Assembly (NCBI RefSeq): GCF_004339245.1
Contig: NZ_SMGG01000003.1
Location: 930,770 to 994,769 of the forward strand
Origin: Seleniivibrio woodruffii
GTDB lineage: Bacteria; Chrysiogenota; Deferribacteres; Deferribacterales; Geovibrionaceae
DNA: 64,000 bases
Reading direction: 5' to 3'
Under the pieces are notes generated by a model. That model saw nothing but the letters and a program-made list of their open reading frames with translations, had not been told where the DNA came from and made no database searches. Positions within the stretch are counted from its first letter, which is position 1; each line of letters opens with the position of its first letter. Made by a program: the position numbers and the translations under genes. This document shows, piece by piece, positions 22 through 49,796 of this stretch.

Positions 22-40
22 GATAATGAAAATCATTATC
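22..40. promoter_or_regulatory. Fur box
   Basis: GATAATGAAAATCATTATC matches the 19-bp Fur consensus GATAATGATAATCATTATC at 18 of 19 positions. It lies about 50 bp before the start of the small Cys-rich membrane protein at 93, where a promoter would sit, so iron repression of that gene is likely. The inference rests on sequence match and position only. Confidence 0.88.
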
Positions 41-92
41 GTTTAAATCAGCCTTATGCAATACGCCGGAAGCATTGCGGAGGAGGGGTTTT

Positions 93-281
93 TTGAGTGC
101 TGACGCTCTTATAGTTATTTCAATTGTGATTTCGGTTGTAATATACGTTACCTACTATTTATTTGTCAGAAAATTCTGCCGCTGTGAAGAGGAAAGAACG
201 GAGGCCGACAGACAGAGCATCGAACACGTCTGCTGCGGCAGATGCTATGAGAAACCGGAATCACGGAAAACTTTAAGCTGA
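93..281 (+). CDS. Small Cys-rich single-pass membrane protein, Fur-controlled
   Basis: A 62-residue protein if it starts at TTG 93, which has a strong Shine-Dalgarno (GGAGGAGGGG, 79-88). The longer reading from TTG 75 would run through that ribosome site and is less likely. Residues about 5-28 form one hydrophobic helix (ALIVISIVISVVIYVTYYLF), followed by a short charged tail with five cysteines (FCRC, then CCGRC). Size, topology and the Fur box upstream resemble the FeoB-associated Cys-rich membrane proteins, but no feo gene is visible because the window begins here. A role in iron uptake or iron sensing is an inference; sequence similarity to a named family could not be tested. Confidence 0.62.
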   Translation: MSADALIVISIVISVVIYVTYYLFVRKFCRCEEERTEADRQSIEHVCCGRCYEKPESRKTLS

Positions 282-283
282 TG

Positions 284-292
284 TGCTATAAT
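284..292 (+). promoter_or_regulatory. Possible extended -10 promoter for the kinase operon
   Basis: TGCTATAAT at 284-292 is a consensus extended -10 element. Transcription would start near 299, leaving only about 10 nt of leader before the ATG at 310, with GTAGGGG as ribosome site. No good -35 box is seen, which is typical of extended -10 promoters. It would uncouple the kinase operon from the Fur-controlled gene upstream. Confidence 0.4.
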
Positions 293-309
293 GTCGGTAG
301 GGGTGCTAT

Positions 310-1353
310 ATGGCCGACATTACACAACTTATTGTCATGCTCAGATCGGGTCCTGAAAACCCGGATGATTTTACCGCATTTGCCGAAAAGATAATTTCAG
401 AGAGCAATTCAGAAGACTGCATTAAGGCTGTCTGCACGGTTTCGGATACAATGCTGGAACTCAGGCGCAGCAAAGAGCGCATCCGGACTCTTGAGGAAGC
501 TCTGAAAGATGCCGAAAGCAAGAGCTGCGAGCATCTTCTCTCCTCCCGTTCTCTTATGATGCGGCAGGAGAAACTGGCCGCCATAGGTCAGCTGGCCGCA
601 GGGATAGCCCACGAACTTAACAACCCGATAGGATATATATCCGGTAACTTTGAGGCTCTCAGAGGCTACAGCATATCCATCTGGAAATTTCTGAACGATC
701 TTGAGAGCATCGCCTCGGACGACTTCAGAGAAACCGCCGCACAGCTGAAAGCCGGATATAAGATAGATTACATAATGGAGGATTCCGAGGCCATCTTTCT
801 GGAATGTTCGGAGGGATTCCGCAGGATATCCGGAATAGTGAACAATCTGCTCTCATTTGCCCGTCAGGATGTGGGAAGCTTCCGGCCGGGCAACCTGAAC
901 AACAGCATCCGCACAACGGCCGCCATTGCCCACAGCCAGTCAAAGTTCATTGCGAAGATAAAACTGGAGCTTGAAGATATCCCCGATTTCGTTTTCTGCG
1001 CAGGGGAGATAAATCAGGTTCTGCTTAATCTGATTCTCAACTCGGTTCAGTCCATCAAATCCCAGAACAGGAGCGAAGAGGGAACCATAACCATCCAAAC
1101 CCGCATAGAGGGCGATTTCGTCCTATGCACGGTGGAGGATGACGGTCCGGGCATACCGCCGTCGCTGATGAGCAGGATATTCGATCCTTTCTTTACAACA
1201 AAGCCGGTCGGCGAGGGCACAGGGCTGGGACTTAATATATCATACGACATAATTGTGAACAGGCATAAAGGTACTATAGACGCTGAGAGCAGGCCGGGCA
1301 GAACAGTATTCAGCTTCCGGCTTCCTTTCGATCCGGGGGCGGTTCATGGCTGA
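310..1353 (+). CDS. Cytoplasmic sensor histidine kinase
   Basis: Sensor kinase of 347 residues with no membrane segment. Residues 1-50 are an unrecognised helical region, about 50-85 a likely coiled coil, and 85-155 a HisKA dimerisation domain with the H-box GQLAAGIAHELNNP (phospho-acceptor His101). The C-terminal half is the HATPase domain, with N-box NLILNSVQSI, G1 DDGPGIP, the F-box PFFTTKPVGEG and G2 GTGLGLNIS. All catalytic motifs are intact. It overlaps the next gene, a REC-HDOD regulator, by 8 nt, so the two are probably translationally coupled and form a cognate pair. The signal sensed is unknown and is probably cytoplasmic. Confidence 0.93.
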   Translation: MADITQLIVMLRSGPENPDDFTAFAEKIISESNSEDCIKAVCTVSDTMLELRRSKERIRTLEEALKDAESKSCEHLLSSRSLMMRQEKLAAIGQLAAGIAHELNNPIGYISGNFEALRGYSISIWKFLNDLESIASDDFRETAAQLKAGYKIDYIMEDSEAIFLECSEGFRRISGIVNNLLSFARQDVGSFRPGNLNNSIRTTAAIAHSQSKFIAKIKLELEDIPDFVFCAGEINQVLLNLILNSVQSIKSQNRSEEGTITIQTRIEGDFVLCTVEDDGPGIPPSLMSRIFDPFFTTKPVGEGTGLGLNISYDIIVNRHKGTIDAESRPGRTVFSFRLPFDPGAVHG

Positions 1354-2551
1354 AGAAGGAACAATTCTGATTGTTGACGACGAGCAGAACATTTTAAGCT
1401 CCCTTCGCCGCCTTTTTATGTGCCATGACGTTGACGTGCGCACGGCAAACAGTGCCGAGGAGGCACTGGAGATGCTCGCCGAGCGTCCGGCGGAGTTTCT
1501 TCTCTGCGACTACAAGATGCCGGATGTTAACGGGATTCAGCTTCTGGAAAGGGTAAAGACCCTCTATCCGGATATGTTTCGTGCCATTCTCAGCGGATAC
1601 GTCGAGGCGGACACAATAACCTATGCCATAGGCAGGGGCACAGCCATGGCATATTTCAAAAAGCCTTGGACCGACTATGATCTTGCAGGCAAGATTCTGC
1701 ATATAATCAGTACTATGCGCCACATAAAGGACAAAGAGCTTCTGAGGATCTTCGGAACGATAGACAAGCTGCCGGGCATACCGAAGATATATTATGAAAT
1801 AAATGATGCGGTCACCGCCGGGCAGTCAATTGACAGGATAGCCGGAATTATAAAGAGGGATACGTCGCTTACGGCGAAGGTATTGCAGATAGGCAACTCT
1901 GTGTTTTACAGCGGAAAGGGCAGCGCCACTCTGGAACAGGCGATACTTATGATAGGTCTGACCACCATAAAGGATATGGTTCTTATGTATAAGATTTCCG
2001 AAGGATTGGGAGTGTCTGCGTCGGTTGAGAAGGAGCTGGCGAAGATATTTGCCGCCGGGCTGGTGCTGAACAAGGCAATGGAGCACTATCTGGTGCACAG
2101 CGGCGAAAAATACAGCAAGGAGATATCGGGCACTCTGGGGATACTCTCCCGTGTGGGACGGATAATCCTGCTTATCTATCATCCCGAAAGATACTATGAA
2201 ACGGTGAATTTTGCGGAAGGGACGGAGTGCAGCTTTGACGAGGCGGAGAGAGAGCTTGGATATGTCACAGACACGGAAAGGGTCATAACCTGCAGTTTTC
2301 TTGACCTTTACAACATACCTTTCGAAATTCTGGAAATAATTCTCTACAAAGGACAGCCCGAAAAGGTCAGCCCTGAAAACAGGCTGGTTGCGGCGGTCTA
2401 TTCGGCGATGTCCGGTCTGCTTTCCGCAATAGGAAAAGGAACCGAGATCACTGATGATAAACTCGAATCTTTTTCATTCGGAATATTAAGTACAGCAAAA
2501 CTTAAGAACACGGCATATATTATAACTGAGGTCTGGAACATCGGAAAATAA
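1346..2551 (+). CDS. Response regulator with HDOD output domain
   Basis: Protein of 401 residues with a receiver domain at 1-120 (acidic pocket DDE at 11-13, phospho-acceptor Asp55 in LLCDYKMPDVNG, and the conserved Lys in FKKPW near 105). An HDOD domain spans about 140-340 (IPKIYYEINDAV, then DTSLTAKVLQIGNS). HDOD domains are related to HD phosphohydrolases but lack the metal ligands and usually act in signalling through protein contacts. The ATG overlaps the kinase gene by 8 nt. The output target cannot be told from sequence; REC-HDOD proteins often act in motility, stress or c-di-GMP networks. Confidence 0.92.
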   Translation: MAEEGTILIVDDEQNILSSLRRLFMCHDVDVRTANSAEEALEMLAERPAEFLLCDYKMPDVNGIQLLERVKTLYPDMFRAILSGYVEADTITYAIGRGTAMAYFKKPWTDYDLAGKILHIISTMRHIKDKELLRIFGTIDKLPGIPKIYYEINDAVTAGQSIDRIAGIIKRDTSLTAKVLQIGNSVFYSGKGSATLEQAILMIGLTTIKDMVLMYKISEGLGVSASVEKELAKIFAAGLVLNKAMEHYLVHSGEKYSKEISGTLGILSRVGRIILLIYHPERYYETVNFAEGTECSFDEAERELGYVTDTERVITCSFLDLYNIPFEILEIILYKGQPEKVSPENRLVAAVYSAMSGLLSAIGKGTEITDDKLESFSFGILSTAKLKNTAYIITEVWNIGK

Positions 2552-2561
2552 CGGGGGATCA

Positions 2562-3119
2562 ATGTTTAAACTTTCCTATGTGGAGCTGGTGACGGGGATA
2601 AAGGCCGCCCGTCTGTCCGAGCTCATCAAAAAAGGGGTGCTGACCGGAGAGGAGCGTGACGGAGCTATGTTCGTCGACGGAGGCAGTGTGGAAAAATTCC
2701 TCATGGCCGAGGGCAGGTTCATTCCCGACGTGTTCCGCACTAACATAATCAGGGTTCTTGTGGTGGACGACGAACCCAACATGCTGAACGCTCTTAAAAG
2801 GCTTTTCAACAGGTTTCCGCAGATAGTCGTGACCACTGCATCCAACGCCTTTGAAATGGGTCACAGCATGCGGACTGTCATGCCGGATATAATTATTCTG
2901 GATTACAGCATGCCCGGAATGGACGGGCTTGAGATTCTGGAAAACCTGAAGGCCGACGGATATCTGGACAAGGTTCACGTTATAGTCTACACAGGCAAGC
3001 TGCCCGAAGAGATGGAATCTGTTTTCGAGGAGTTTGAGAACGTAAAGGTTCTGGCAAAAAGTGCTGACTTTAAGGAACTGCTTCTGACACTTGAAAAGAT
3101 GGTTAACGAAAAGAACTGA
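2562..3119 (+). CDS. HTH-REC protein: DNA-binding-like domain fused before a receiver
   Basis: A 185-residue protein beginning 10 nt after the REC-HDOD gene. Residues 1-50 (LSYVELVTGIKAARLSELI, then EERDGAMFVDGGSVEKFL) look like a MerR/excisionase-type winged helix. Residues 62-185 are a complete receiver: DDEPN at 69-73, phospho-acceptor Asp114 in IILDYSMPGMDG, and Lys in VLAKSADF. The order is reversed from classic regulators, where the receiver comes first. It is probably a second target of the upstream kinase. The DNA-binding assignment is by pattern only. Confidence 0.85.
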   Translation: MFKLSYVELVTGIKAARLSELIKKGVLTGEERDGAMFVDGGSVEKFLMAEGRFIPDVFRTNIIRVLVVDDEPNMLNALKRLFNRFPQIVVTTASNAFEMGHSMRTVMPDIIILDYSMPGMDGLEILENLKADGYLDKVHVIVYTGKLPEEMESVFEEFENVKVLAKSADFKELLLTLEKMVNEKN

Positions 3120-37891: not shown

Positions 37892-38965
37892 ATGACAAAA
37901 AATGACATATATATCAGCCCCGAAATTGAGATCAAGGAAGCTCTGCGCAAGCTGGACATGTCCGCCAGAAAGGTTCTTCTGGTGGTTGACGGCGAAAGGC
38001 GGCTTCTGGGGGCGCTGACGGACGGAGATATCCGCAGGAGCATTCTGGCGGGAAAAGATCTGAAAGAGAGCATCTCGGGCATCTATAATCAGAAACCCAG
38101 ATACATTTCCGTGGATGATTTTTCATTCGATAAGATAAAAAGCATAATGCTTGCCCACAGGGTCGAGCTTCTTCCGGTGGTGGAGGAAGATATGACCGTG
38201 GCTGACTACATCACATGGGACAAGGTTTTTGCCGAGAGGAAAGAGGAGGAGGGCACAGACGAGCTTAAAAACTGTCCGCTGGTTGTTATGGCGGGCGGAA
38301 AGGGAACCCGTCTGGAACCTTTTACGAAGATTCTGCCCAAGCCGCTGATACCCATCGGTGAAAAGCCCATAATTCAGGTCATAGTTGATAAGTTCGCAGA
38401 GAGGGGAGCGTCAAAGTTCTTCTTCGTTGTGAACTACAAGGGCGAGATGATCCAGTCATATTTCCACCATCTGGCGGAGCAGTACGACATTGAATATCTC
38501 TGGGAGAAGGATTTTTTCGGAACAGCAGGCGGCCTTAAAATGATGGCGGAGCATGTTGACGGGGATTTCTTCGTGTCCAACTGCGATGTGATAATCAAAG
38601 CGAAGTATGAGCATATCCTGAAGCTCCACAGGGAGAACGATGCCGTTCTTACGGTGGTTTCCGCAATCCAGCACTACAGAATACCCTACGGTGTGGTTCA
38701 GTTTAAAAAGGGCGGCGACGTTACGGGCATAGAAGAGAAGCCGGAGTTCACTTTTACAGTGAACACAGGGCTTTATGTGCTCAGCAGGCGTGCTCTTGAC
38801 TATATAAAAGATAACGAATATCTGGACATGACAACCCTTATCGACAGAATAATCAGCAGCGGTCAGCGGGTTTTCACCTACCCTGTGAACGAGAACGAAT
38901 ATATCGATATCGGTCAGTGGGAAGAGTATAAAAAATCTGTGGGGAAACTGAAAGTTTTGGACTAA
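37892..38965 (+). CDS. ptmE: CBS-domain sugar nucleotidyltransferase, PtmE type
   Basis: 357 residues from ATG 37892; a GTG at 37883 would add three. Residues 1-115 form a CBS pair (LVVDGERRLLGALTDGDIRR, then LAHRVELLPVVEED). Residues 130-357 form the nucleotidyltransferase (VVMAGGKGTRLEPFTKILPK, then DFFVSNCDVIIKAKYEHIL). This architecture is that of PtmE, the GlcN-1-phosphate guanylyltransferase of the Campylobacter legionaminic acid pathway, which provides the GDP-sugar upstream of LegB. A related hexose-1-phosphate nucleotidyltransferase is the alternative. Confidence 0.83.
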   Translation: MTKNDIYISPEIEIKEALRKLDMSARKVLLVVDGERRLLGALTDGDIRRSILAGKDLKESISGIYNQKPRYISVDDFSFDKIKSIMLAHRVELLPVVEEDMTVADYITWDKVFAERKEEEGTDELKNCPLVVMAGGKGTRLEPFTKILPKPLIPIGEKPIIQVIVDKFAERGASKFFFVVNYKGEMIQSYFHHLAEQYDIEYLWEKDFFGTAGGLKMMAEHVDGDFFVSNCDVIIKAKYEHILKLHRENDAVLTVVSAIQHYRIPYGVVQFKKGGDVTGIEEKPEFTFTVNTGLYVLSRRALDYIKDNEYLDMTTLIDRIISSGQRVFTYPVNENEYIDIGQWEEYKKSVGKLKVLD

Positions 38966-39003
38966 GGCTGTGAAAAAACCACCAGAAGTGGTACACTGCT
39001 TAT

Positions 39004-40878
39004 ATGAGACAACCCCTTAACCCTGACCTGGCGCAAAACCTGAAACATACCCTGACAACATGCTCGGAGTGGCTTGTTAAGCGGGTGATGTATTACCTTA
39101 AGGCGCAGGGTTACGACGTTTACCTGCCCGACAGCGACAAATGGCTCTCAAACGCACTCTATCAGCTTAATGAACCTGTTCTTGAAACACCCACCGCATA
39201 TTTCGGCATTCCGGAGCTTCACCCACATGCGGATTTTTCATGCGATCCATATGCCCAGTTCGGCATGAGTCAGGCACGGCTTTTCATGCGCCGGAAGCTG
39301 GACGTTGTTGTTTTTATGGGCATTTTCAAATATATCCGTCAGTCATATGAAGATCTTATAAGTTCCAGATGCACCTCCGAGGAGGAGTGCAGGCTCTGCC
39401 GCTCCTTCATGAAGCGATATTTCGACCACGTCGAGCTGGGATTTATGAATGAATACCGTGAATCAATAACAAGAACAAAAGTTGAAACCATTCCATACAG
39501 GATAGTCGCCGACAAGGGCGGCTGTCCATGTGCTATCTTCTCTCCGGAGGGAACCTGCGTTTATGCAAACAGTGCTTCCGCACGCTTTATGGACACAGAA
39601 GGGATGCTCGATATCCTCAGCCGTGAGAGCAGTGCATTTTTCCAGAGCGGCAGACAGAACAGCGTGTATGCCTTTGCGCTCAGCGGCAGAGTGTACGTCG
39701 CCGAGTTCACGCTGCTGATAAAGGAGAGCGACAGATTTTCCGGTGCACTGGCAGTTCTCCGGGATGAGACCGAAAAGCGCAACGCAAAAGAGATTCTGGA
39801 GGAGAGCGAGTCCTTCCGCTCGGCTCTTATGGACGGAATAGCCGGAGCAGCTCTGGTTCTGAACATGGAGAGTCTCTCCATTGAAGACTACAACAAAAAG
39901 GCGGCGGAGCTTCTGCCTTTTCTGACAGGTGCGGAGGATGCTCTGGAGCCTGTTTTCCATGACGATTGCGGCTCGAAGCCCATGGGACTTTTCGAACTGG
40001 CGGAGATGACAGGCAGCAACGAAGAGAGGCTGATGGAGACCCACGGAGGCATGATGCCCATCCGTGTTTTCAGTGTTGAGGTCTGGCTTCGCAACCAGAG
40101 GCACAGGCTATTGCTGATGTTCGACATAACCCGTGAGAAGATGCTTGAGCGCAAGCTGGGACACGTTCAGCACTTGCAGTCGGTGGGCGAACTGGCTCTG
40201 GGACTGCCCATCCGCATGAGCAAAACCTCAGCGGAGATAACCGGAACTCTGAAATCGGCCATTCAGGCACTTAAAGACTGTCCGAACAGGTGCGGTGCCA
40301 TAGCAACAAACGATCTGCTCCCACATGTGGTCGATGCTGAAAACTGCCTGAACGATCTGACTGCTCTGTTGGATGCCCTTGCGTCCATAACCCGTTCCGA
40401 CAGCATGGAAAAGGAATTTATCAACATAGATGAGACAGTTAAGAGCTGCGTGCTTCTCACCAGAGACAAGTGGGAGGCATATTGCGAAATGGAGCTTAAT
40501 CTGGCGAAACAGCAGTGCGCCGTGCGCTGTTATCCCGACGAAATGGGGCAGCTGGTGCTGAACCTGCTGATGAACGCCGCCTACGCAGTCCGCAAAAAAG
40601 CGGAGGCCGACGGCGAAAAGGGAAAAATATCCGTTTCCACCAGATACACCGCCGATTTCTTCGAACTCAGGATATCAGATACGGGTATCGGTATCAAAAA
40701 GCACGACTTCAAACGTGTTTTCGATGCGGGATTTTCCACAATGGCCGTGGGCATGGGAACAGGCCACGGACTTTCCACAGTGTACGACATCGTTGTGAAC
40801 AGATACAAGGGAACCATAGAGTTCAAAAGTCAGGAGGGAGTGGGAACCGAGTTCACCGTCCGCCTGCCTCTCAGATGA
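39004..40878 (+). CDS. PAS-containing kinase-like protein lacking the phospho-acceptor His
   Basis: 624 residues, no membrane helix. Residues 1-160 are a helical domain with a Cys pair (EEECRLCRSF), faintly like RsbRD-type sensor domains. About 165-260 and 265-380 look like two PAS domains. At the HisKA position the sequence QHLQSVGELALGLPIRMSKT aligns with the usual EKLAAIGQLAAGIAHELNNP, but the acceptor His is Ile and the following Glu is Arg. The ATPase domain is intact (LVLNLLMNAAYAV, ISDTGIGIK, GTGHGLSTVYDIV). It probably binds ATP but cannot autophosphorylate in the normal way. It converges without a gap on the diguanylate cyclase gene. Confidence 0.85.
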   Translation: MRQPLNPDLAQNLKHTLTTCSEWLVKRVMYYLKAQGYDVYLPDSDKWLSNALYQLNEPVLETPTAYFGIPELHPHADFSCDPYAQFGMSQARLFMRRKLDVVVFMGIFKYIRQSYEDLISSRCTSEEECRLCRSFMKRYFDHVELGFMNEYRESITRTKVETIPYRIVADKGGCPCAIFSPEGTCVYANSASARFMDTEGMLDILSRESSAFFQSGRQNSVYAFALSGRVYVAEFTLLIKESDRFSGALAVLRDETEKRNAKEILEESESFRSALMDGIAGAALVLNMESLSIEDYNKKAAELLPFLTGAEDALEPVFHDDCGSKPMGLFELAEMTGSNEERLMETHGGMMPIRVFSVEVWLRNQRHRLLLMFDITREKMLERKLGHVQHLQSVGELALGLPIRMSKTSAEITGTLKSAIQALKDCPNRCGAIATNDLLPHVVDAENCLNDLTALLDALASITRSDSMEKEFINIDETVKSCVLLTRDKWEAYCEMELNLAKQQCAVRCYPDEMGQLVLNLLMNAAYAVRKKAEADGEKGKISVSTRYTADFFELRISDTGIGIKKHDFKRVFDAGFSTMAVGMGTGHGLSTVYDIVVNRYKGTIEFKSQEGVGTEFTVRLPLR

Positions 40879-41820
40879 TCATATCCTGAAAAACTGCATT
40901 CCGTGCCCGCCACGCTTTTTTACATCATAAATGCCGTTATCGGCTGTTTTGATTATCTTTCTTATCTGTTCGGTTATCGTGTCCCTGTCGTTTATGTCCG
41001 CAGAAACGGCGGAAATGCTGAGAGTTGTTCCGTAGCGTTCCGATGCCAGATAGGTCTCCTCCAGTCGGCTGGCGACCCTTCTTGCGGCGGATGCGTCCGC
41101 CTGCGGCAGTATTATTCCGAATTCGTCTCCGCCGAAACGGAAAGGGATGTCTCTGCCGTTTCTGATGATCTCTTTCATAACTGATGCCAGCTGTTTCAGC
41201 ACCCGGTCGCCGATGTCGTGACCGTGGGTGTCGTTCACCTGTTTGAACTTATCGCAGTCCACAAGGATAAGTGTCAGTATCTGGCCGCTTTGCACTGCGT
41301 TTTTTGCTTCTGCCTGAAACACACGGTCGAAGTATCTGCGGTTGTAAAGTCCCGTCAGCGGATCTTTTTCGGCCAGTTCCTTCATAAGGTTCGCTTCGGA
41401 GCGGGTCTCGTTCAGATTTGTTACAAGCATGCGGTTCTGGCCTCTGACAACTCTTGCCAGAGATTCCAGACTGCGCAGAACCTGCATCAGATAGTTCTCT
41501 TCGTCCTGATCCTTTTGTATTGGCAGAACGAAGTGAGTGTCGTAATATCCGTCCTTGATGCGTTCGGAAAACTGATGGATTTTCAGCAGAGTGTTCTTAA
41601 AGAGCAGGTATTCCAGAAGATTTGTTATTGACTTAGACGAGAGAAGAACGAATATGGGGATCAGGAGCAGGCCGTTTGCCTTTGGTTCGACTATTTCGTG
41701 TTCGTATAAAAGGATTATGCTGAACATGGGGATTACGCTCAGGATAAGGATAACGGCGAAGAGCTGAAGCCTGATCCTGTAGTTGACCTTTATTACTGCG
41801 GAAGATGCCGGACTTTCCAT
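40879..41820 (-). CDS. Membrane-bound diguanylate cyclase (GGDEF)
   Basis: 313 residues from ATG 41820. The open frame continues to 41892, but that extension would be read through a Fur box, so the downstream ATG is preferred. Two membrane helices (LFAVILILSVIPMFSIILL and GLLLIPIFVLLSSKSI) are followed by a helical linker and a C-terminal GGDEF domain (DPLTGLYNRRYFDRVFQ, RFGGDEFGIILP). No canonical RxxD inhibitory site is seen at the usual distance. It makes c-di-GMP, which commonly switches cells from swimming to surface life; its position next to flagellin genes fits. Confidence 0.93.
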   Translation of the reverse strand: MESPASSAVIKVNYRIRLQLFAVILILSVIPMFSIILLYEHEIVEPKANGLLLIPIFVLLSSKSITNLLEYLLFKNTLLKIHQFSERIKDGYYDTHFVLPIQKDQDEENYLMQVLRSLESLARVVRGQNRMLVTNLNETRSEANLMKELAEKDPLTGLYNRRYFDRVFQAEAKNAVQSGQILTLILVDCDKFKQVNDTHGHDIGDRVLKQLASVMKEIIRNGRDIPFRFGGDEFGIILPQADASAARRVASRLEETYLASERYGTTLSISAVSADINDRDTITEQIRKIIKTADNGIYDVKKRGGHGMQFFRI

Positions 41821-41852
41821 TTGAATCACCTGTAATAAACTTGCGGAAATAT

Positions 41853-41871
41853 GATAATGATAGTCATTATC
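41853..41871. promoter_or_regulatory. Fur box before the diguanylate cyclase
   Basis: GATAATGATAGTCATTATC matches the Fur consensus at 18 of 19 positions and lies 33 bp before the preferred cyclase start. Iron-dependent repression of the cyclase is inferred. The nearest gene on the other side, flagellin 2, starts 475 bp away. Confidence 0.88.
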
Positions 41872-41930
41872 AATAAATGATGTGAATGTCAATGATTATC
41901 TGAAAGACCTGTTCATCCCCCTGGGGCACC

Positions 41931-41994
41931 GTCACCATGAGGCGCATGCCGAAGAATCCCATTGCAAGTGATTCTTCATTGCATTCAGAATGAC
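41931..41994. repeat. Dispersed repeat, family A
   Basis: 64 bp with ends GTCACCATGAGG ... GTTCAGAATGAC-like (CATTCAGAATGAC) and internal GAAGAATCC / GATTCTTC arms. The gap 41821-42345 holds the Fur box, this repeat, an A/T-rich stretch, the promoter and RNA element at 42058-42169, and the flagellin leader. Confidence 0.7.
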
Positions 41995-42057
41995 AGGACA
42001 TAAGCACCTGCAAACAAACGACATTAATCTTTTCTTTAAAAAAATTAAAATTTCCTA

Positions 42058-42085
42058 TTAAGTTTTGATTCAGCCATGACGATAC
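42058..42085 (+). promoter_or_regulatory. Probable sigma-28 promoter upstream of flagellin 2
   Basis: TTAAGTTT (42058-42065), 12 nt, GACGATAC (42078-42085), compared with TAAAGTTT-N11-GCCGATAA. The same pair with an 11-nt spacer precedes flagellin 3. It is about 260 nt before the flagellin start, and an intrinsic terminator lies in between. Confidence 0.65.
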
Positions 42086-42091
42086 TAACAT

Positions 42092-42169
42092 CACAACAGA
42101 AGAATATGAAAAAAGGTACTGAAACAATCAGACCGATGACTGTAGGAAATACAGCGTCGGTCTTTTTTT
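42092..42169 (+). ncRNA. Short sigma-28 transcript or attenuated leader before flagellin 2
   Basis: From the expected start to the T-run is about 78 nt. It contains the block GGTACTGAAACAATCAGACC, nearly identical in the copy before flagellin 3, and ends in hairpin 42130-42163: AGACCGATGACTGTA pairs with TACAGCGTCGGTCT (one bulge) around the loop GGAAA, then a T-run. It is either a small RNA or a leader whose terminator controls read-through into the flagellin. The GGA at the loop apex suggests CsrA binding. Confidence 0.55.
42130..42169 (+). terminator. Intrinsic terminator/attenuator with GGAAA loop
   Basis: A stem of about 14 bp with a single bulge and a 5-nt loop GGAAA, followed by seven T. 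It lies between the sigma-28 promoter and flagellin 2, about 176 nt before its start, so it must be passed or bypassed for flagellin expression. Confidence 0.8.
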
Positions 42170-42304
42170 GTTTTCAGCCTGACTAAAGGGGTGGCATTCT
42201 CTAAGAAGGATTGTCAAAAACACAGCACATAACAGGAACTAGAGTCAGGACGACTCTGAAACGACACACAGTTTAATAATATTTTTTTGCCATTGTACAC
42301 ACCA

Positions 42305-42320
42305 CCGGCACGGATGCCGG
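42305..42320 (+). promoter_or_regulatory. GGA-loop leader hairpin (probable CsrA site), flagellin 2
   Basis: CCGGCA-CGGA-TGCCGG: a perfect 6-bp stem and a CGGA tetraloop, 13 nt before the Shine-Dalgarno GGAGG (42334-42338). It shares the core GCA-NGGA-TGC with the other two flagellin leaders. Confidence 0.75.
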
Positions 42321-42345
42321 GGTCAGATTACACGGAGGTAATATC

Positions 42346-44739
42346 ATGGCACTTACAGTTTACACAAACGTAAACTCTATCATGGCGCAGAGTTACGTAA
42401 ATCAGACAAGCAACAACATCTCAAAAAACCTTGAAAAACTTTCATCCGGTCTCAGAATAAACAGCGCAGCAGACGACGCATCTGGTCTTGCTATTTCTGA
42501 GAAACTTCGCGGACAGATCTCCGGTCTCAAAAGAGCATCCATGAACGCCCAGGACGGTATCTCTATGCTTCAGACTGCTGAAGGCGGTCTTGCTACCATT
42601 CAGTCTATGACACAGAGAATGAGAGAGCTGGCTGTTCAGGCGGCCAACGGCGTTTACACTTCAAACGACCGTGCGGAGATCCAGAAAGAGGTTGACCAGC
42701 TGAAAGCTGAGATCGATCGTGTGGCTTCATCCACAGAGTTCAACACCAAAAAACTCCTTAACGGAAACGCCACAGCCCTTTGGTCTACAGACAAGACATC
42801 TGCTATCGATGTTGTTGTGAAAGGCAAAGTTGCGGAAGGCAACTATAACCTCGATATTGATGTAACTGCCGGTAAAAACTATGTCTACAAATCAGACGTT
42901 ATGACACTTAACGAGTCCTCAATCGGCGGCGAGATCGTTGAAGACGGCGCAGCAGGCGACAACGACTCAAACGTTCTGTCTGTAACAGACATCAAAACCA
43001 TGGCCACATCAGGAACAAGCTACTACACAGTTAATGTGGGCGACGTTTCTGCCAACACATCTGCAACTATGACAGTCACAGGCACCTTCCAGCAGGCAGG
43101 TTCCTCGTTCTCAGTTGCATCTGCGGCCACTGTTTCAACTGCAACTTCATCCGGCTACGTCGAAGTTAAATTCGATCAGGATGTAACAGCAGGCGCAACC
43201 GCAATCTCTGCTAAAATAAGATTCATCAACGCCAAAACAGGCACAGTGGGCGACTGGGTAACAGTCACTGCATCTGCAACTGGCGGCACTATCAGCATAT
43301 CTTCAGCTGACACAGCGGCTCTGACAGACACAGCCGGCGGCACTCTGGGATTCGACATGAGCCTCAGCCTCGGCGTTAACGGCAAGATCCAGTCAGGCGA
43401 TAAAGTCCTTCTGGCTCAGTCAGGCAGTGTTACAACTGCGGACAGCATCGCATCATCAGGCGGCGGTACAATCAAGATATCTGACGGCCCCGCAGGACAG
43501 TCAGGCCCCACAATCAACTTTACAACTGCAAGCTCTCTGACCAAGAAAGATAACGGCGACAACATCGTAGATGCTAACAACGTAACAGTTTACTACGCAT
43601 CCATCGACAGCAGTACCGGCAACATTGACCTTGGTTCAATGAGCATCAACTTTAAAGAAGGCAGCAACGCTACAGATGCCAACGGTCTCACCAAGACCGA
43701 CTCCTTCAACCTTGAAGTGAGAGGCGGCGGAGATGTTGCGACCTCAACAACAAAACTCAGAGACATCGCTTTGTTCACAACTGACGACGGACGCAACCTG
43801 TTCGACCAGACTCAGGAACTGACGATCTTCGGCAACGGTTCATCAAAAACCATCTATCTGGAAGGCGATGACACAATAGCTGACTTCGAGAACAAACTCT
43901 CTGAAGCAATCAAGTCAATAGGAATGGGTGCGGACAGCTCAACCAGCGACACAGTTTCCGATGTTAACAACAACCTCGTTAACTACGTTACTCTTGCAAA
44001 AGATAACTCTAACGAAGCTGTTCAGGGAACTTTCGTAATCCAGACTGCGAAACTTGGCGAAGACAGCAAACTGTCATTCGTTGGCGATGAGAACCTCATC
44101 AACGCTCTGTCCCTTGCAAAAATTCAGGACGGAACAAACAGCGAACTGAACGTGACCGTTACTGACGCTCACACAGGCAAAACCATCGGTTCCGACAAGG
44201 TCAACGACTATAAACTGAAAGACGTTATCGCAGGCCTTGAAGTGAAAGTGGACAGCGCAGTCGGCCTCGACATCTCCTGGGACGACATAAGCAAAACAAT
44301 GACTTTCACCGGAAGCTCAGACAGCGTTAAACTCCACGTTGTCGATAACACAACAGAGCTTCAGATAGGTGCCAACGAAGGTCAGACCATCAACACAAGC
44401 GTTGCTCAGGCGGACACAAACGCCCTCGGCCTTGCAGATGTTCTGATGGTAGATCAGGAGAGCGCACAGTCGGCTATCACCAAGATAGACAACGCTCTGA
44501 ACAACATATCAAGCGCAAGAGCCACTCTGGGTGCTCAGATCAACAGACTTGAGTACACAATCTCCGGCCTTGATACCACAAGAGAGAACCTGACAGCTTC
44601 CGAGTCCAGAATCCGTGACCTGGATATGGCTGCTGAAATGTCAGACTTCACTAAGAACCAGATACTCAGCCAGGCCGGTGTGGCAATGATTTCTCAGGCC
44701 AACGCACAGGCTCAGCTGGCAATGCAGCTTCTCGGATAA
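42346..44739 (+). CDS. Flagellin (giant, 797 residues)
   Basis: Canonical flagellin ends (SSGLRINSAADDASGLAISE at the N-side; RIRDLDMAAEMSDFTKNQIL and AQLAMQLLG at the C-side) enclose a central insertion of more than 450 residues rich in Thr, Ser, Ala and Asp. It is nearly identical in length and very similar throughout to the next gene, with which it forms a tandem duplication that includes the upstream RNA element. The strong GGAGG at 42334 and the GGA-loop hairpin indicate high, regulated translation. Such long surface-exposed Ser/Thr regions are typical glycosylation targets. Confidence 0.97.
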   Translation: MALTVYTNVNSIMAQSYVNQTSNNISKNLEKLSSGLRINSAADDASGLAISEKLRGQISGLKRASMNAQDGISMLQTAEGGLATIQSMTQRMRELAVQAANGVYTSNDRAEIQKEVDQLKAEIDRVASSTEFNTKKLLNGNATALWSTDKTSAIDVVVKGKVAEGNYNLDIDVTAGKNYVYKSDVMTLNESSIGGEIVEDGAAGDNDSNVLSVTDIKTMATSGTSYYTVNVGDVSANTSATMTVTGTFQQAGSSFSVASAATVSTATSSGYVEVKFDQDVTAGATAISAKIRFINAKTGTVGDWVTVTASATGGTISISSADTAALTDTAGGTLGFDMSLSLGVNGKIQSGDKVLLAQSGSVTTADSIASSGGGTIKISDGPAGQSGPTINFTTASSLTKKDNGDNIVDANNVTVYYASIDSSTGNIDLGSMSINFKEGSNATDANGLTKTDSFNLEVRGGGDVATSTTKLRDIALFTTDDGRNLFDQTQELTIFGNGSSKTIYLEGDDTIADFENKLSEAIKSIGMGADSSTSDTVSDVNNNLVNYVTLAKDNSNEAVQGTFVIQTAKLGEDSKLSFVGDENLINALSLAKIQDGTNSELNVTVTDAHTGKTIGSDKVNDYKLKDVIAGLEVKVDSAVGLDISWDDISKTMTFTGSSDSVKLHVVDNTTELQIGANEGQTINTSVAQADTNALGLADVLMVDQESAQSAITKIDNALNNISSARATLGAQINRLEYTISGLDTTRENLTASESRIRDLDMAAEMSDFTKNQILSQAGVAMISQANAQAQLAMQLLG

Positions 44740-44760
44740 GAGAAGGCCCAAAGGAAACTA

Positions 44761-44789
44761 AGCGGGCCCTAAAAAGCCCGCTTTTTTTT
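44761..44789 (+). terminator. Terminator of flagellin 2
   Basis: AGCGGGC (44761-44767) pairs with GCCCGCT (44776-44782), followed by a T-run to 44789, 21 nt after the stop codon. Confidence 0.93.
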
Positions 44790-44801
44790 ATCCATATTAT
44801 C

Positions 44802-44828
44802 TTAAGTTTTTAGAAATTATGACGATAC
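44802..44828 (+). promoter_or_regulatory. Probable sigma-28 promoter upstream of flagellin 3
   Basis: TTAAGTTT (44802-44809), 11 nt, GACGATAC (44821-44828), just after the flagellin 2 terminator. It uses the same boxes as the element before flagellin 2 and has the exact consensus spacer. The 336-nt gap 44740-45075 is fully used: terminator, this promoter, the RNA element, a 125-nt stretch without recognised features, and the leader hairpin. Confidence 0.68.
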
Positions 44829-44834
44829 TAAGAA

Positions 44835-44906
44835 TATAAAAAATAAGAATAGGTACTGAAATAATCAGACCGATGCTCGTTGGATAAACGTCATCGGTCT
44901 TTTTTT
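44835..44906 (+). ncRNA. Short sigma-28 transcript or attenuated leader before flagellin 3
   Basis: Second copy of the element before flagellin 2, about 72 nt from the expected start. GGTACTGAAATAATCAGACC is conserved. The terminal hairpin pairs AGACCGATG (44867-44875) with CATCGGTCT (44892-44900); an inner stem CGTT/AACG closes the loop GGATA. The T-run ends at 44906. Stem and loop sequences differ from copy 1, yet the structure and the apical GGA are kept, which argues for an RNA-level function. Confidence 0.55.
44867..44906 (+). terminator. Intrinsic terminator/attenuator with GGATA loop
   Basis: A perfect 9-bp outer stem, a short internal loop, a 4-bp inner stem and a GGATA loop, followed by a T-run. 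It lies 170 nt before the flagellin 3 start. Confidence 0.82.
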
Positions 44907-45031
44907 ATCCACAGTTCCTGCGGGGGTGTTTCACTTTTCGAGTGTTTTATTATCGGTTTCCTAAAAGGACAAAAGAGCAGCAATGCTCTGCAAAAACAAC
45001 AGTTTTTTAGCTATTGCCATCATCCAAGCCC

Positions 45032-45047
45032 CCGGCATGGATGCCGG
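45032..45047 (+). promoter_or_regulatory. GGA-loop leader hairpin (probable CsrA site), flagellin 3
   Basis: CCGGCA-TGGA-TGCCGG: a perfect 6-bp stem and a TGGA tetraloop, 16 nt before the Shine-Dalgarno GGAGG (45064-45068). The loop base before GGA differs in each of the three flagellin genes, while GGA and stem pairing are kept. Confidence 0.75.
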
Positions 45048-45075
45048 AGGTAATTAATTACACGGAGGTAATATC

Positions 45076-47469
45076 ATGGCACTTACAGTTTACACAAACG
45101 TAAACTCCCTTATGGCGCAGAGTTACGTAAACCAGACAAGCAGCAACATCTCAAAAAACCTTGAGAAACTGTCGTCAGGCCTCAGAATAAACAGCGCAGC
45201 CGATGACGCATCGGGTCTTGCTATTTCTGAGAAACTCCGCGGACAGATATCCGGCCTTAAAAGAGCATCTTCAAACGCTCAGGACGGTATCTCCATGCTC
45301 CAGACAGCAGAAGGCGGTCTGGCAACTATTCAGTCAATGACTCAGAGAATGAGAGAACTGGCTGTTCAGGCATCTAACGGCGTTTACACTTCAAACGACC
45401 GTGCAGAGATCCAGAAAGAGGTTGATCAGCTGAAAGAAGAGATCGACCGTGTTGCTTCTTCAACCGAATTCAACACAAAAAAGCTCCTTAACGGAAACGC
45501 TACTGCTCTGTGGTCAACAGACAAGACATCCTCTATAGATGTTGTTGTAAAAGGTCAGGTTGCTGAAGGTAACTACAACCTTAACGTTGACGTTACTGCG
45601 GGCAAGAACAACGTTTACAAGTCAGACGTTATGACTCTTAACTCTGATGCAGTGGGCGGCGAGATCGTTGAAGACGGCGCAGCAGGCGACAACGATTCAA
45701 ACGTTCTGTCTGTAACAGACATCAAAACAATGGCTACTTCAGGTACAAGCTATTACACAGTTAACGTGGGCGACGTATCTGCAAACACATCTGCAACTAT
45801 GACAGTGACAGGTTCCTTCCAGCAGGCAGGTTCCTCATTCTCAGTTGCAACAGCAGCCACTGTTTCCACTGCAACTTCATCCGGCTACGTCGAAGTTAAA
45901 TTCGATCAGGATGTAACAGCAGGCGCAACTGCAATTTCTGCAAAAGTCAGATTCATCAACGCCAAAACAGGCGATGTGGGCGACTGGGTAACCGTTACAG
46001 CTTCTGCAACAGGCAGCACTATCAGCATATCTTCTGCTGACACAGCAGCTCTGACAGACACAGCCGGCGGCACACTTGGATTCGACATGACCATCAGCCT
46101 CGGCGTTAACGGCAAGATCCAGTCAGGCGACAAGGTTCTTCTTGCTCAGACAGGTAACGTTACAACCGCTGACAGCATCGCATCATCAGGCGGCGGTACA
46201 ATCAAGATATCTGACGGCCCCGCAGGACAGGCAGGCCCCACAATCAACTTCACAACCGCAAGCTCGCTGACCAAAAAGGATAACGGTGACAGCGTTGTAG
46301 ACACTAACAACGTAACAGTTTACTACGCATCCATCAACAGCGACACAGGTAACATTGATGTGGGTTCTATGACCCTTAACTTTAAAGAAAAGAGCAACGC
46401 AACCGACGCAAACGGTCAGACAACTACCGACTCCTTCAACCTTGAAGTGAGAGGCGGCGGCGACGTTGCAACATCCAGCACCAAGCTGAGAGACATCGCT
46501 CTGTTCACAACTGACGACGGACGCAATCTTTTCGACCAGACTCAGGAACTGACTGTTTTCGGTAACGGTTCATCAAAAACCATCTATCTGGAAGGCGATG
46601 ACACAGTTTCCGATTTTGAAAACAAAATGACAGAAGCTATCAAGTCTCTGGGCATGGGCGCAACAAGCAGCAACAGCGAAACAGTTTCCGATGTTAACAA
46701 CAACCTCGTGAACTATGTAACCAATGAAACTGACAACTCGAACGAAGCTCTGAAAGGTACTTTCGTAATCCAGACAGCAAAACTGGGCGATGACAGCAAA
46801 CTGTCATTCGTAGGCGACGAGAACCTTATCAACGCTCTGTCTCTGGTTCAGATTCAGAAAGGTGAGAACAGCGAACTGAACATCACCGTTACAGACGCTC
46901 ACACAGGCAAAACAATCGGTTCTGACAAAGTCAACGACTATAAACTGAAAGACGTTATCGCAGGCGTTGAGGTTAAAGTTGACAGCGCTGTCGGTCTTGA
47001 CATTTCCTGGAATGACACAGACAAGAAGATGACTTTCACCGGCAGTACTGAAGATATCAAACTTCACGTTGTTGACAACTCAACACAGCTTCAGATAGGC
47101 GCAAACGAAGGTCAGACCATCACAACAAACATCTCTCAGGCCGACACCAAGGCGCTTGGCCTCTCAGATGTGCTTATGGTAGATCAGGAAAGCGCACAGA
47201 AATCTATCACAACGATAGATTCAGCTCTGAACAAGATCTCCAGTGCAAGAGCGACAATCGGTGCTCAGATCAACAGACTTGAGTACACCATCACCGGTCT
47301 TGACACTACAAGAGAAAACCTGACAGCTTCCGAATCCAGAATCCGTGATCTGGACATGGCTTCAGAAATGTCAGATTTCACTAAGAACCAGATCCTCAGC
47401 CAGGCTGGCGTAGCTATGATTTCTCAGGCTAACGCTCAGGCTCAGATGGCTCTTCAGGTTCTTGGCTAA
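45076..47469 (+). CDS. Flagellin (giant, 797 residues)
   Basis: Same length and architecture as flagellin 2, with conserved ends (SSGLRINSAADDASGLAISE; RIRDLDMASEMSDFTKNQIL; AQMALQVLG) and a highly similar centre. Differences are scattered conservative substitutions, and codon choice also differs, so the duplication is not very recent. It has its own promoter element, leader hairpin and terminator, so it can be expressed independently. Confidence 0.97.
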   Translation: MALTVYTNVNSLMAQSYVNQTSSNISKNLEKLSSGLRINSAADDASGLAISEKLRGQISGLKRASSNAQDGISMLQTAEGGLATIQSMTQRMRELAVQASNGVYTSNDRAEIQKEVDQLKEEIDRVASSTEFNTKKLLNGNATALWSTDKTSSIDVVVKGQVAEGNYNLNVDVTAGKNNVYKSDVMTLNSDAVGGEIVEDGAAGDNDSNVLSVTDIKTMATSGTSYYTVNVGDVSANTSATMTVTGSFQQAGSSFSVATAATVSTATSSGYVEVKFDQDVTAGATAISAKVRFINAKTGDVGDWVTVTASATGSTISISSADTAALTDTAGGTLGFDMTISLGVNGKIQSGDKVLLAQTGNVTTADSIASSGGGTIKISDGPAGQAGPTINFTTASSLTKKDNGDSVVDTNNVTVYYASINSDTGNIDVGSMTLNFKEKSNATDANGQTTTDSFNLEVRGGGDVATSSTKLRDIALFTTDDGRNLFDQTQELTVFGNGSSKTIYLEGDDTVSDFENKMTEAIKSLGMGATSSNSETVSDVNNNLVNYVTNETDNSNEALKGTFVIQTAKLGDDSKLSFVGDENLINALSLVQIQKGENSELNITVTDAHTGKTIGSDKVNDYKLKDVIAGVEVKVDSAVGLDISWNDTDKKMTFTGSTEDIKLHVVDNSTQLQIGANEGQTITTNISQADTKALGLSDVLMVDQESAQKSITTIDSALNKISSARATIGAQINRLEYTITGLDTTRENLTASESRIRDLDMASEMSDFTKNQILSQAGVAMISQANAQAQMALQVLG

Positions 47470-47492
47470 GAGCTAAAACAGTTCCAAATATA

Positions 47493-47520
47493 AAAGCGGG
47501 CTTTCGGGCCCGCTTTTTTT
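47493..47520 (+). terminator. Terminator of flagellin 3
   Basis: AAAGCGGGC (47493-47501) pairs with GCCCGCTTT (47508-47516), followed by more T to 47520. A degenerate family A repeat lies between it and the end of the spoT-like gene (about 47600-47630). Confidence 0.93.
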
Positions 47521-47639
47521 ATGTCACGCTATTCGGCAATTAATTAAGAGTGGATTCATACAGTCTTCGGCCAGTGAGTGTAACGATGAGTTCATGATTG
47601 AGATCCTTCGGCTTTAGCCTCAGGATGAAGGTTTCAAAG

Positions 47640-49796
47640 TTAATTAGCAGTATTTACTTCGCGTAATCCGTCTATCGTTTTAATTTTTCGGATCACGCTC
47701 TCCAGCTCGCTCTTGTTGCGAACCTCTATGCTGAAATCCTGAGATGACAGTCCGTCCTTGTCCCTTCTGGATGAAAGCTCAAGGATGTTAAGCCCCATCT
47801 CTTTCAGCACGGTCGTAAGCGCACTGAGCACGCCGGGCTTATCCACGATGGAGGTATGTATTCTGACGGGCATCTTGTAGCTTTTTCGGGCATCCCACTG
47901 CACGTCCACCAGTCGTTCCTCGCTGAATGCTGAGTTTTTCAGGTTGTTGCAGTCCACTCGGTGGACAACGATACCCCGTCCACGGCTGATGTAGCCAACA
48001 ACGTCGTCACCGGGCAGAGGCGTACAGCATTTTGCTATCTTAACCATCACATCATCAATACCCTGTATGATGAAGGGGGTGTTAGTCTTTTTACCGGAAT
48101 CTTTTGAAGGCGCTTTCTGAAGATCTTCAAGGCGCTGGGGTGTCGTGGGTTCGGTGAACACATGGAGCACCTGTTTCGGAGACACACGGCCGAAGCCGAC
48201 GGAAAGATAGATATCCTCCTCGTCCCTCAGCTTGAAGCGTTCTATTATCTTCTTTACGTTGTCAGGCTTATTGAATATCTCACGGACATCAAGCCCTGCG
48301 TTGGTAAACTCTTTATCCATCAGGTCGAAACCGACGGTGTGTCCCATATCCGTATCTATCTTTCTCAGAGCCGCACGGATACGGTTCTTCGCTTTGCTGG
48401 TTTTAACAAAGTTCAGCCAGTCACGGCTGGGCTTGTGGTCTTCACCGAGAATGATTGAGACCCTGTCGCCGTTTCTCAGCTTATATTTAAGCGGAACGAT
48501 ACGGCCGTCCACCTTTGCACCCTTGCATTTGTTGCCGACGTCGGTATGGATGTTGTATGCAAAATCCACAGGGGTAGAGCCTATGGGCAGTTCCATAACA
48601 TCGCCTTTGGGTGTGAAAACATATATCTGGGTGGGCAGAACGTCCTCTTTCAGAGCTTCAACAAGGTCTTCGGGGCTGTGGAGCTCATGCTGATCCAGAA
48701 GCTGACGGAGCCATGTGAAAGCTTTGTCCTCCTGCGGATCAAAGGGGCGGTTCTCTTTATATTTCCAGTGGGCGGCGATGCCCTCTTCCGCAACCATGTG
48801 CATTTCCTGAGTGCGGATCTGGAACTCAACCGTTATACCTTTCGGACCGATTATTGTGGTGTGCAGAGACTGATAAAGGTTCGCCTTCTGCATTGCGATA
48901 TAGTCTTTGAACCTGTGCTGTATCGGCTTCCACATGTTATGCAGTATACCCATCACCGCATAGCAGGTGGGTATATCGCTGACCAGAACCCTTAGAGCCA
49001 GAAGGTCGTAGATCTCCTCAAAGGAGACCTTTTTCTTTATCATTTTGCTGTAGATTGAGTAAAAGTGCTTGGGTCTGCCGGATACGGACGCATGGATATT
49101 GTGCTTTTCCAACTCGTCTATCACACGTTCCTTTATCTCAGCAAGATACTGCTCCCTCTCGCCCCGTTTCAGCTTAACTTTTTCATAGATATCGTAATAC
49201 GCATCGGGATTAAGAATACGGAAACACATGTCCTCCAGCTCCCATTTTATCCAGGCGATACCCAGCCTGTGAGCCATAGGGGCATAGATGTCCATTGTCT
49301 CCTGAGCTATGCGGCGTTTTTTCTCTTCCGCCAGATAGTCCAGAGTGCGCATATTGTGCAGCCTGTCGGCCAGTTTAATTATAATAACCCTCACGTCCTT
49401 GGACATGGAGACCAGCATTTTGCGGAAGTTTTCCGCCTGCTTCTCCTCTGCGGACTTAAAGACGATCTTTCCTATTTTCGAAACACCCTCAACGATGAAG
49501 GCAACGTCCTCGCCGAACAGTTCCTTTATTTCGTCAAAAGTAGCGTCTGTGTCCTCTATTGTATCGTGGAGCAGGCCGCCTATGACGGTGTCCACGTCCA
49601 TGTTCATCTGCGCAAGGATATACGCTACATTCAGCGGGTGCGAAAGATAAGGCTCGCCGCTTTTTCTCAGCTGGCCTCTATGTTTCTGCGCCGCATAAAT
49701 GTATGCCTTGTGCACACGGTCAAACCCTTCGGCCACACCGTTTGCGGTCAGCATATCCTGTATATCCATCAGGCGGATTACACGATCCCTTGCCAT
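47640..49796 (-). CDS. spoT: Bifunctional (p)ppGpp synthetase/hydrolase
   Basis: 718 residues. HD hydrolase domain with intact HDTIED (GGLLHDTIEDTDATF) and SHPLNVA; synthetase domain with RFKDYIAMQKANLYQSLHT and FQIRTQEMHMVAEEGIAAHW; TGS domain (VFTPKGDVMELPIGSTPVDF); C-terminal ACT domain. Both enzyme centres look functional, as in long RSH proteins. The ATG 49796 follows a perfect GGAGGA and lies 19 nt inside the recJ end. Confidence 0.95.
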   Translation of the reverse strand: MARDRVIRLMDIQDMLTANGVAEGFDRVHKAYIYAAQKHRGQLRKSGEPYLSHPLNVAYILAQMNMDVDTVIGGLLHDTIEDTDATFDEIKELFGEDVAFIVEGVSKIGKIVFKSAEEKQAENFRKMLVSMSKDVRVIIIKLADRLHNMRTLDYLAEEKKRRIAQETMDIYAPMAHRLGIAWIKWELEDMCFRILNPDAYYDIYEKVKLKRGEREQYLAEIKERVIDELEKHNIHASVSGRPKHFYSIYSKMIKKKVSFEEIYDLLALRVLVSDIPTCYAVMGILHNMWKPIQHRFKDYIAMQKANLYQSLHTTIIGPKGITVEFQIRTQEMHMVAEEGIAAHWKYKENRPFDPQEDKAFTWLRQLLDQHELHSPEDLVEALKEDVLPTQIYVFTPKGDVMELPIGSTPVDFAYNIHTDVGNKCKGAKVDGRIVPLKYKLRNGDRVSIILGEDHKPSRDWLNFVKTSKAKNRIRAALRKIDTDMGHTVGFDLMDKEFTNAGLDVREIFNKPDNVKKIIERFKLRDEEDIYLSVGFGRVSPKQVLHVFTEPTTPQRLEDLQKAPSKDSGKKTNTPFIIQGIDDVMVKIAKCCTPLPGDDVVGYISRGRGIVVHRVDCNNLKNSAFSEERLVDVQWDARKSYKMPVRIHTSIVDKPGVLSALTTVLKEMGLNILELSSRRDKDGLSSQDFSIEVRNKSELESVIRKIKTIDGLREVNTAN

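Follow-up and report, generated by a model that had tools for sequence, protein, structure and literature searches.

A near-perfect Fur box lies on the core promoter of a gene for a predicted membrane diguanylate cyclase in Seleniivibrio woodruffii, and comparison with the orthologues strongly supports it as a genuine Fur site. We consider it very likely that the box serves as a Fur operator and that iron scarcity would raise the amount of the cyclase and hence of c-di-GMP. What can be seen directly in the DNA is the box, a fixed promoter geometry, their conservation, sister sites on iron genes and an intact GGDEF motif. Unless a locus or contig is named, coordinates refer to the window, the whole stretch of 64,000 nucleotides that was analysed, which corresponds to C3:930770-994769 of its genome, G000.

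The Fur box and the cyclase promoter

The original prediction had placed a near-consensus Fur box shortly upstream of a GGDEF gene, and such a box is present. The palindrome GATAATGATAGTCATTATC occupies 41853-41871 (minus strand, as the gene; read on the plus strand) and in a consensus scan agrees at 18 of 19 positions, with one mismatch, with what we take to be the 19-bp Fur consensus. The gap to the preferred start is indeed short; counted from the box edge to the ATG at 41820 it is 32 bp, not the 33 bp claimed. The end coordinate first given, 41871, takes in the box, and the coding sequence itself is 40879-41820.

A 19-bp palindrome of this quality near a promoter goes beyond chance. With up to three mismatches allowed, the window contains four strand-matches at two places (41853-41871 and 22-40), and the chance expectation there, from 100 shuffles, is 0.01 for all matches at this threshold. 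The whole 2.9-Mb genome contains 14 distinct places at the same threshold, while a reversed-pattern control gave 0 forward and 2 reverse matches; at up to two mismatches the control gave 0 in all five genus genomes.

A -35 element, TTGACA (41887-41892, minus strand), stands exactly 15 nt ahead of the box and is identical in three orthologues; with this hexamer at a fixed distance, the box therefore overlies the -10 region of the cyclase promoter, as one would expect for a site of repression. The likely -10 element is GATAAT (41866-41871, minus strand), the best match and itself within the box, and transcription would start near 41859 on the minus strand. Against this assignment counts the spacing, since GATAAT lies 15 nt from TTGACA where 17 is usual, and one orthologue has GATATT instead. 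In the genome of the window, TTGACA-like hexamers (at least 5/6) occur at the 15-nt offset in 3 of 28 box contexts, that is, 14 sites in both orientations, with 0.13 expected per offset for uniform bases; the 15-nt offset is found also before the gene of a small Cys-rich protein and before exbB (TTGACT). At an offset of 9 nt, six bp closer, such hexamers occur in 4 of 28 contexts, a group noticed after the fact. The cyclase promoter also holds a 5/6 hexamer at 9 nt, TTCACA, and this is the one chosen by a promoter scan.

Clear orthologues of the cyclase, with proteins 70% identical, were found in three of the four other genus genomes (G009, G010 and G011); the fourth, G008, is without one. The proposed check of conservation came out in favour of the box, which is retained before all three orthologues (18, 18 and 17 of 19), a comparison that rests on few genes (n = 3). 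TTGACA is perfect and exactly 15 nt before the box in the window and in all three, while the spacer between them has diverged. Of the 50 phylum genomes searched with the N-terminal 150 aa, 4 have the N-terminal half, the own genome included, and the remaining 46 gave no orthologue. A scan of genome contigs with an exact peptide pattern, a method that reaches close relatives only, returned three loci.

A search of 38000-48000 for known RNA elements near the cyclase gene gave no Rfam match up to E 0.5. A dispersed repeat lies at 41930-42012, 38-120 bp upstream of the cyclase -35 element; it has 25 matches in the genome, itself included, and may mark how the cyclase unit arrived at this locus.

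Fur boxes elsewhere in the genome

Open frames were read around all 14 box places, and Pfam was run for the main ones. Six of the 14 boxes are at genes of iron metabolism or its regulation as follows: two before feoA-feoB, and one each between a TonB-receptor gene and a divergent gene, before a flavodoxin gene, before fur, and between exbB and the fecCD genes. The others are before the cyclase gene, before the small Cys-rich membrane protein gene with a kinase (window 22-40), after a FeoA-domain gene and before a class V aminotransferase gene, one box each, with four more inside reading frames that are probably there by chance. The same motif is thus carried by iron-uptake genes in a genome that encodes four Fur-family proteins, one of which has a box at its own gene. 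From the co-regulated genes we infer that the protein that binds is Fur. The search also brought to light much of a Fur regulon in the genus. In seven other genomes of the family, no Fur box was seen before other GGDEF genes among the 26 loci read, a check in which some listed sites of G001 and G003 had no locus.

The second box of the window (22-40) has TTGACT 15 nt ahead and heads a run of genes at 22-3119 for the small Cys-rich membrane protein, a histidine kinase, a receiver-HDOD protein and a receiver protein, apparently an iron-controlled signalling operon. The small protein, which had no Pfam match, presumably resembles FeoB-associated proteins, and a box with the small protein and/or the kinase recurs in relatives. 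Small proteins of one kind, MKVSVVGGL..., have Fur boxes before them in another genus of the family (L096, L111 and L113); we take these proteins to be similar to DUF2325, and they are a possible further Fur target.

The box that directly follows the FeoA-domain gene (L004:1290-1519, minus strand; G000:C3 about 453620-453847) is itself succeeded by about 115 nt of conserved intergenic sequence, in which a GC-rich closing stem is invariant and the core reads GTCAACCCRACGCTAA. The same element occurs at L052, L057, L058, L059 and L121, the distance from box to core is 84 bp both in the own genome and in G001, which belongs to another genus, and the core is present in 6 of 50 phylum genomes. The element had no Rfam match up to E 1 in the four loci searched, and RNAalifold gave an energy of -34.2 with an unfavourable covariation term of +1.3. 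It is possibly a Fur-controlled small RNA.

The cyclase and its neighbourhood

The cyclase gene (40879-41820, minus strand; ATG at 41820, stop ending at 40879) encodes 313 aa. The hydropathy profile has two hydrophobic N-terminal stretches, at about residues 14-44 and 50-69, connected by a short loop, and a helical linker leads to a C-terminal GGDEF domain (residues 151-305; Pfam 1.4e-36). The GGDEF motif at 230-234 is intact and invariant in four of four orthologues, and the profile of the protein matches the DosC, WspR and PleD chains, so that we regard it as a predicted diguanylate cyclase that would make c-di-GMP. At the position of the optional inhibitory site (I-site) the sequences read NGRD, NGRD, SGRD and SGRD, with NGRD in the window protein, instead of RxxD; many active diguanylate cyclases are without an RxxD inhibitory site. 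Pfam recognised no sensor domain in the cyclase and no HAMP domain. The linker is mostly helical in a low-confidence prediction, and modelling gave a poor structure over the N-terminal half (mean pLDDT 63.6, pTM 0.50), for which reason we claim nothing from the HAMP-like look of the linker. Because the protein has two membrane stretches, a short loop and no recognised sensor domain, its main input is probably its own amount, as set by Fur.

Around the cyclase, gene order has changed within the genus. In the window the gene lies tail to tail with a kinase gene (39004-40878), their stop codons abutting without a spacer at 40876-40881. The kinase is found in all five genus genomes; no cyclase was seen beside it in the four relatives, where some contigs end near the kinase. 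At L015, L016 and L017 the cyclase is instead tail to tail with a LysR-type gene, beyond which comes a permease gene, names that we assign by presumed likeness (LysR, YeiH-like permease); two of the relatives likewise have no spacer between cyclase and LysR gene. In the genome of the window that LysR gene lies elsewhere (contig C9), without a cyclase. On the other side of the cyclase stand two tandem flagellin genes in divergent orientation (42346-44739 and 45076-47469), which are nearly alike, encode 797 aa each and have a very long central region.

Iron control, its alternatives and known systems

With ample iron, Fur-Fe2+ would occupy the -10 region and block RNA polymerase; when iron is scarce, Fur would depart and the TTGACA promoter would fire, more of the membrane cyclase would be made and c-di-GMP would go up. 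Fur binding, the direction of regulation, the activity of the enzyme and the rise in c-di-GMP are the steps that we infer from the DNA. In other bacteria the usual consequence of c-di-GMP is a shift between swimming and surface life, with less swimming as it rises. The original prediction that iron starvation raises the cyclase is supported as regards transcription, for which the conserved box with TTGACA and the sister boxes on iron genes argue, but not in what it drew from the flagellin genes.

That the flagellin genes are functional partners of the cyclase, with the site coordinating both, would fit the divergent flagellin start at 42346, 526 bp from the cyclase start, and nearness had been offered as evidence for a swimming-to-surface switch. 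We find such a partnership very improbable. In the three orthologous loci the neighbours are LysR and YeiH-like permease genes, with no flagellin among the open frames shown, and beside the kinase kept in five of five genomes no cyclase was seen in the four relatives. Promoter and gene thus stay paired in altered surroundings, the nearness is particular to this genome, and we rejected it as a functional clue. Equally hard to credit is a true protein of 337 aa, or one with the 28-30-codon N-terminal extension of the relatives, which would place the box inside or just before the coding sequence. As predicted, a longer frame, from TTG 41892, does stay open and would be translated through the box, and in the relatives an in-frame TTG occurs 28-30 codons ahead of the aligned ATG. 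However, the TTG of the window forms the first half of the conserved TTGACA; ATG 41820 is preceded by a likely ribosome-binding site of its own, AGGTGA (41826-41831, minus strand; read by eye), and it aligns with the Met of the relatives. Between L016 and L017 the 28 codons of the extension comprise 17 identical, 3 synonymous and 8 non-synonymous ones, against 191, 101 and 19 of 311 in the main protein, so that coding constraint is not visible there. Taken together, these points bear out ATG 41820 as the start and led us to rule out the longer start codon; in the relatives, moreover, the TTG of the extension is downstream of the box, which leaves the box upstream of both possible starts.

The box might also be bound mainly by another member of the Fur family, PerR- or Zur-like, and the cyclase would then answer to peroxide or zinc and not to iron. 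The genome has four such genes, and the binding sites of Fur-family proteins resemble one another; still, the presence of the same 19-bp motif at feoAB, the TonB-receptor gene, exbB/fecCD, flavodoxin and fur makes this improbable. Less remote, though we hold it unlikely, is that Fur binds but regulates weakly, independently of iron or as an activator, and that c-di-GMP is unaffected, buffered by the many GGDEF proteins: the cyclase query has 27 matches in its own genome, itself included, and Fur control of cdgD in Vibrio cholerae is, in the available part of the report, independent of iron (PMC7641913). Given that example, an iron response need not follow automatically. Against it, the box sits on the core promoter at a constant distance from the -35 element in four of four orthologues, as expected for repression, and we retain repression by Fur-Fe2+ as the preferred reading. 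Going beyond it, we suggest only tentatively, and with some doubt, that this is a genus-restricted, sensor-less cyclase with Fur as its sole input, that promoter, operator and gene were relocated as a unit, and that iron starvation leads to surface behaviour. If this were true, the deep-branching anaerobic Deferribacterota would gain a direct connection between iron starvation and surface behaviour, and whether these bacteria attach might depend on their iron supply.

Regulation of cyclase genes by Fur is already known as a kind, and it is the lineage that is new in the literature searched: among the open-access matches listed, none concerned this gene or Fur with c-di-GMP in Seleniivibrio or Deferribacterota. 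In Yersinia pestis the diguanylate cyclase gene hmsT is directly repressed by Fur, and loss of fur raises c-di-GMP and biofilm, according to the text available (PMC3528687). The likeness is a diguanylate cyclase gene under Fur, which in our case is predicted from sequence; unlike hmsT, with its two footprinted sites 283-244 and 102-71 bp upstream, the gene described here has a single near-perfect box on the core promoter, and it belongs to a different phylum (PMC3528687). The GGDEF gene cdgD of V. cholerae, again of another phylum, is repressed by Fur as judged by EMSA and footprint, and is likewise a GGDEF gene under Fur, but the excerpt available describes an iron-independent effect (PMC7641913), where our case is a prediction of iron control. 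Similar in its companions is gdp of Desulfovibrio, a GGDEF gene for which Fur boxes have been predicted in two species; the predicted regulon likewise takes in feoAB, flavodoxin and an HD-domain gene, a set much like the present one. In the part of that report at hand, gdp is a prediction only, with two overlapping boxes shifted by 6 bp, and it comes from delta-proteobacteria as opposed to Deferribacterota (PMC545781). To these the cyclase of S. woodruffii adds a case from outside Proteobacteria in which iron control over c-di-GMP is predicted with good support.
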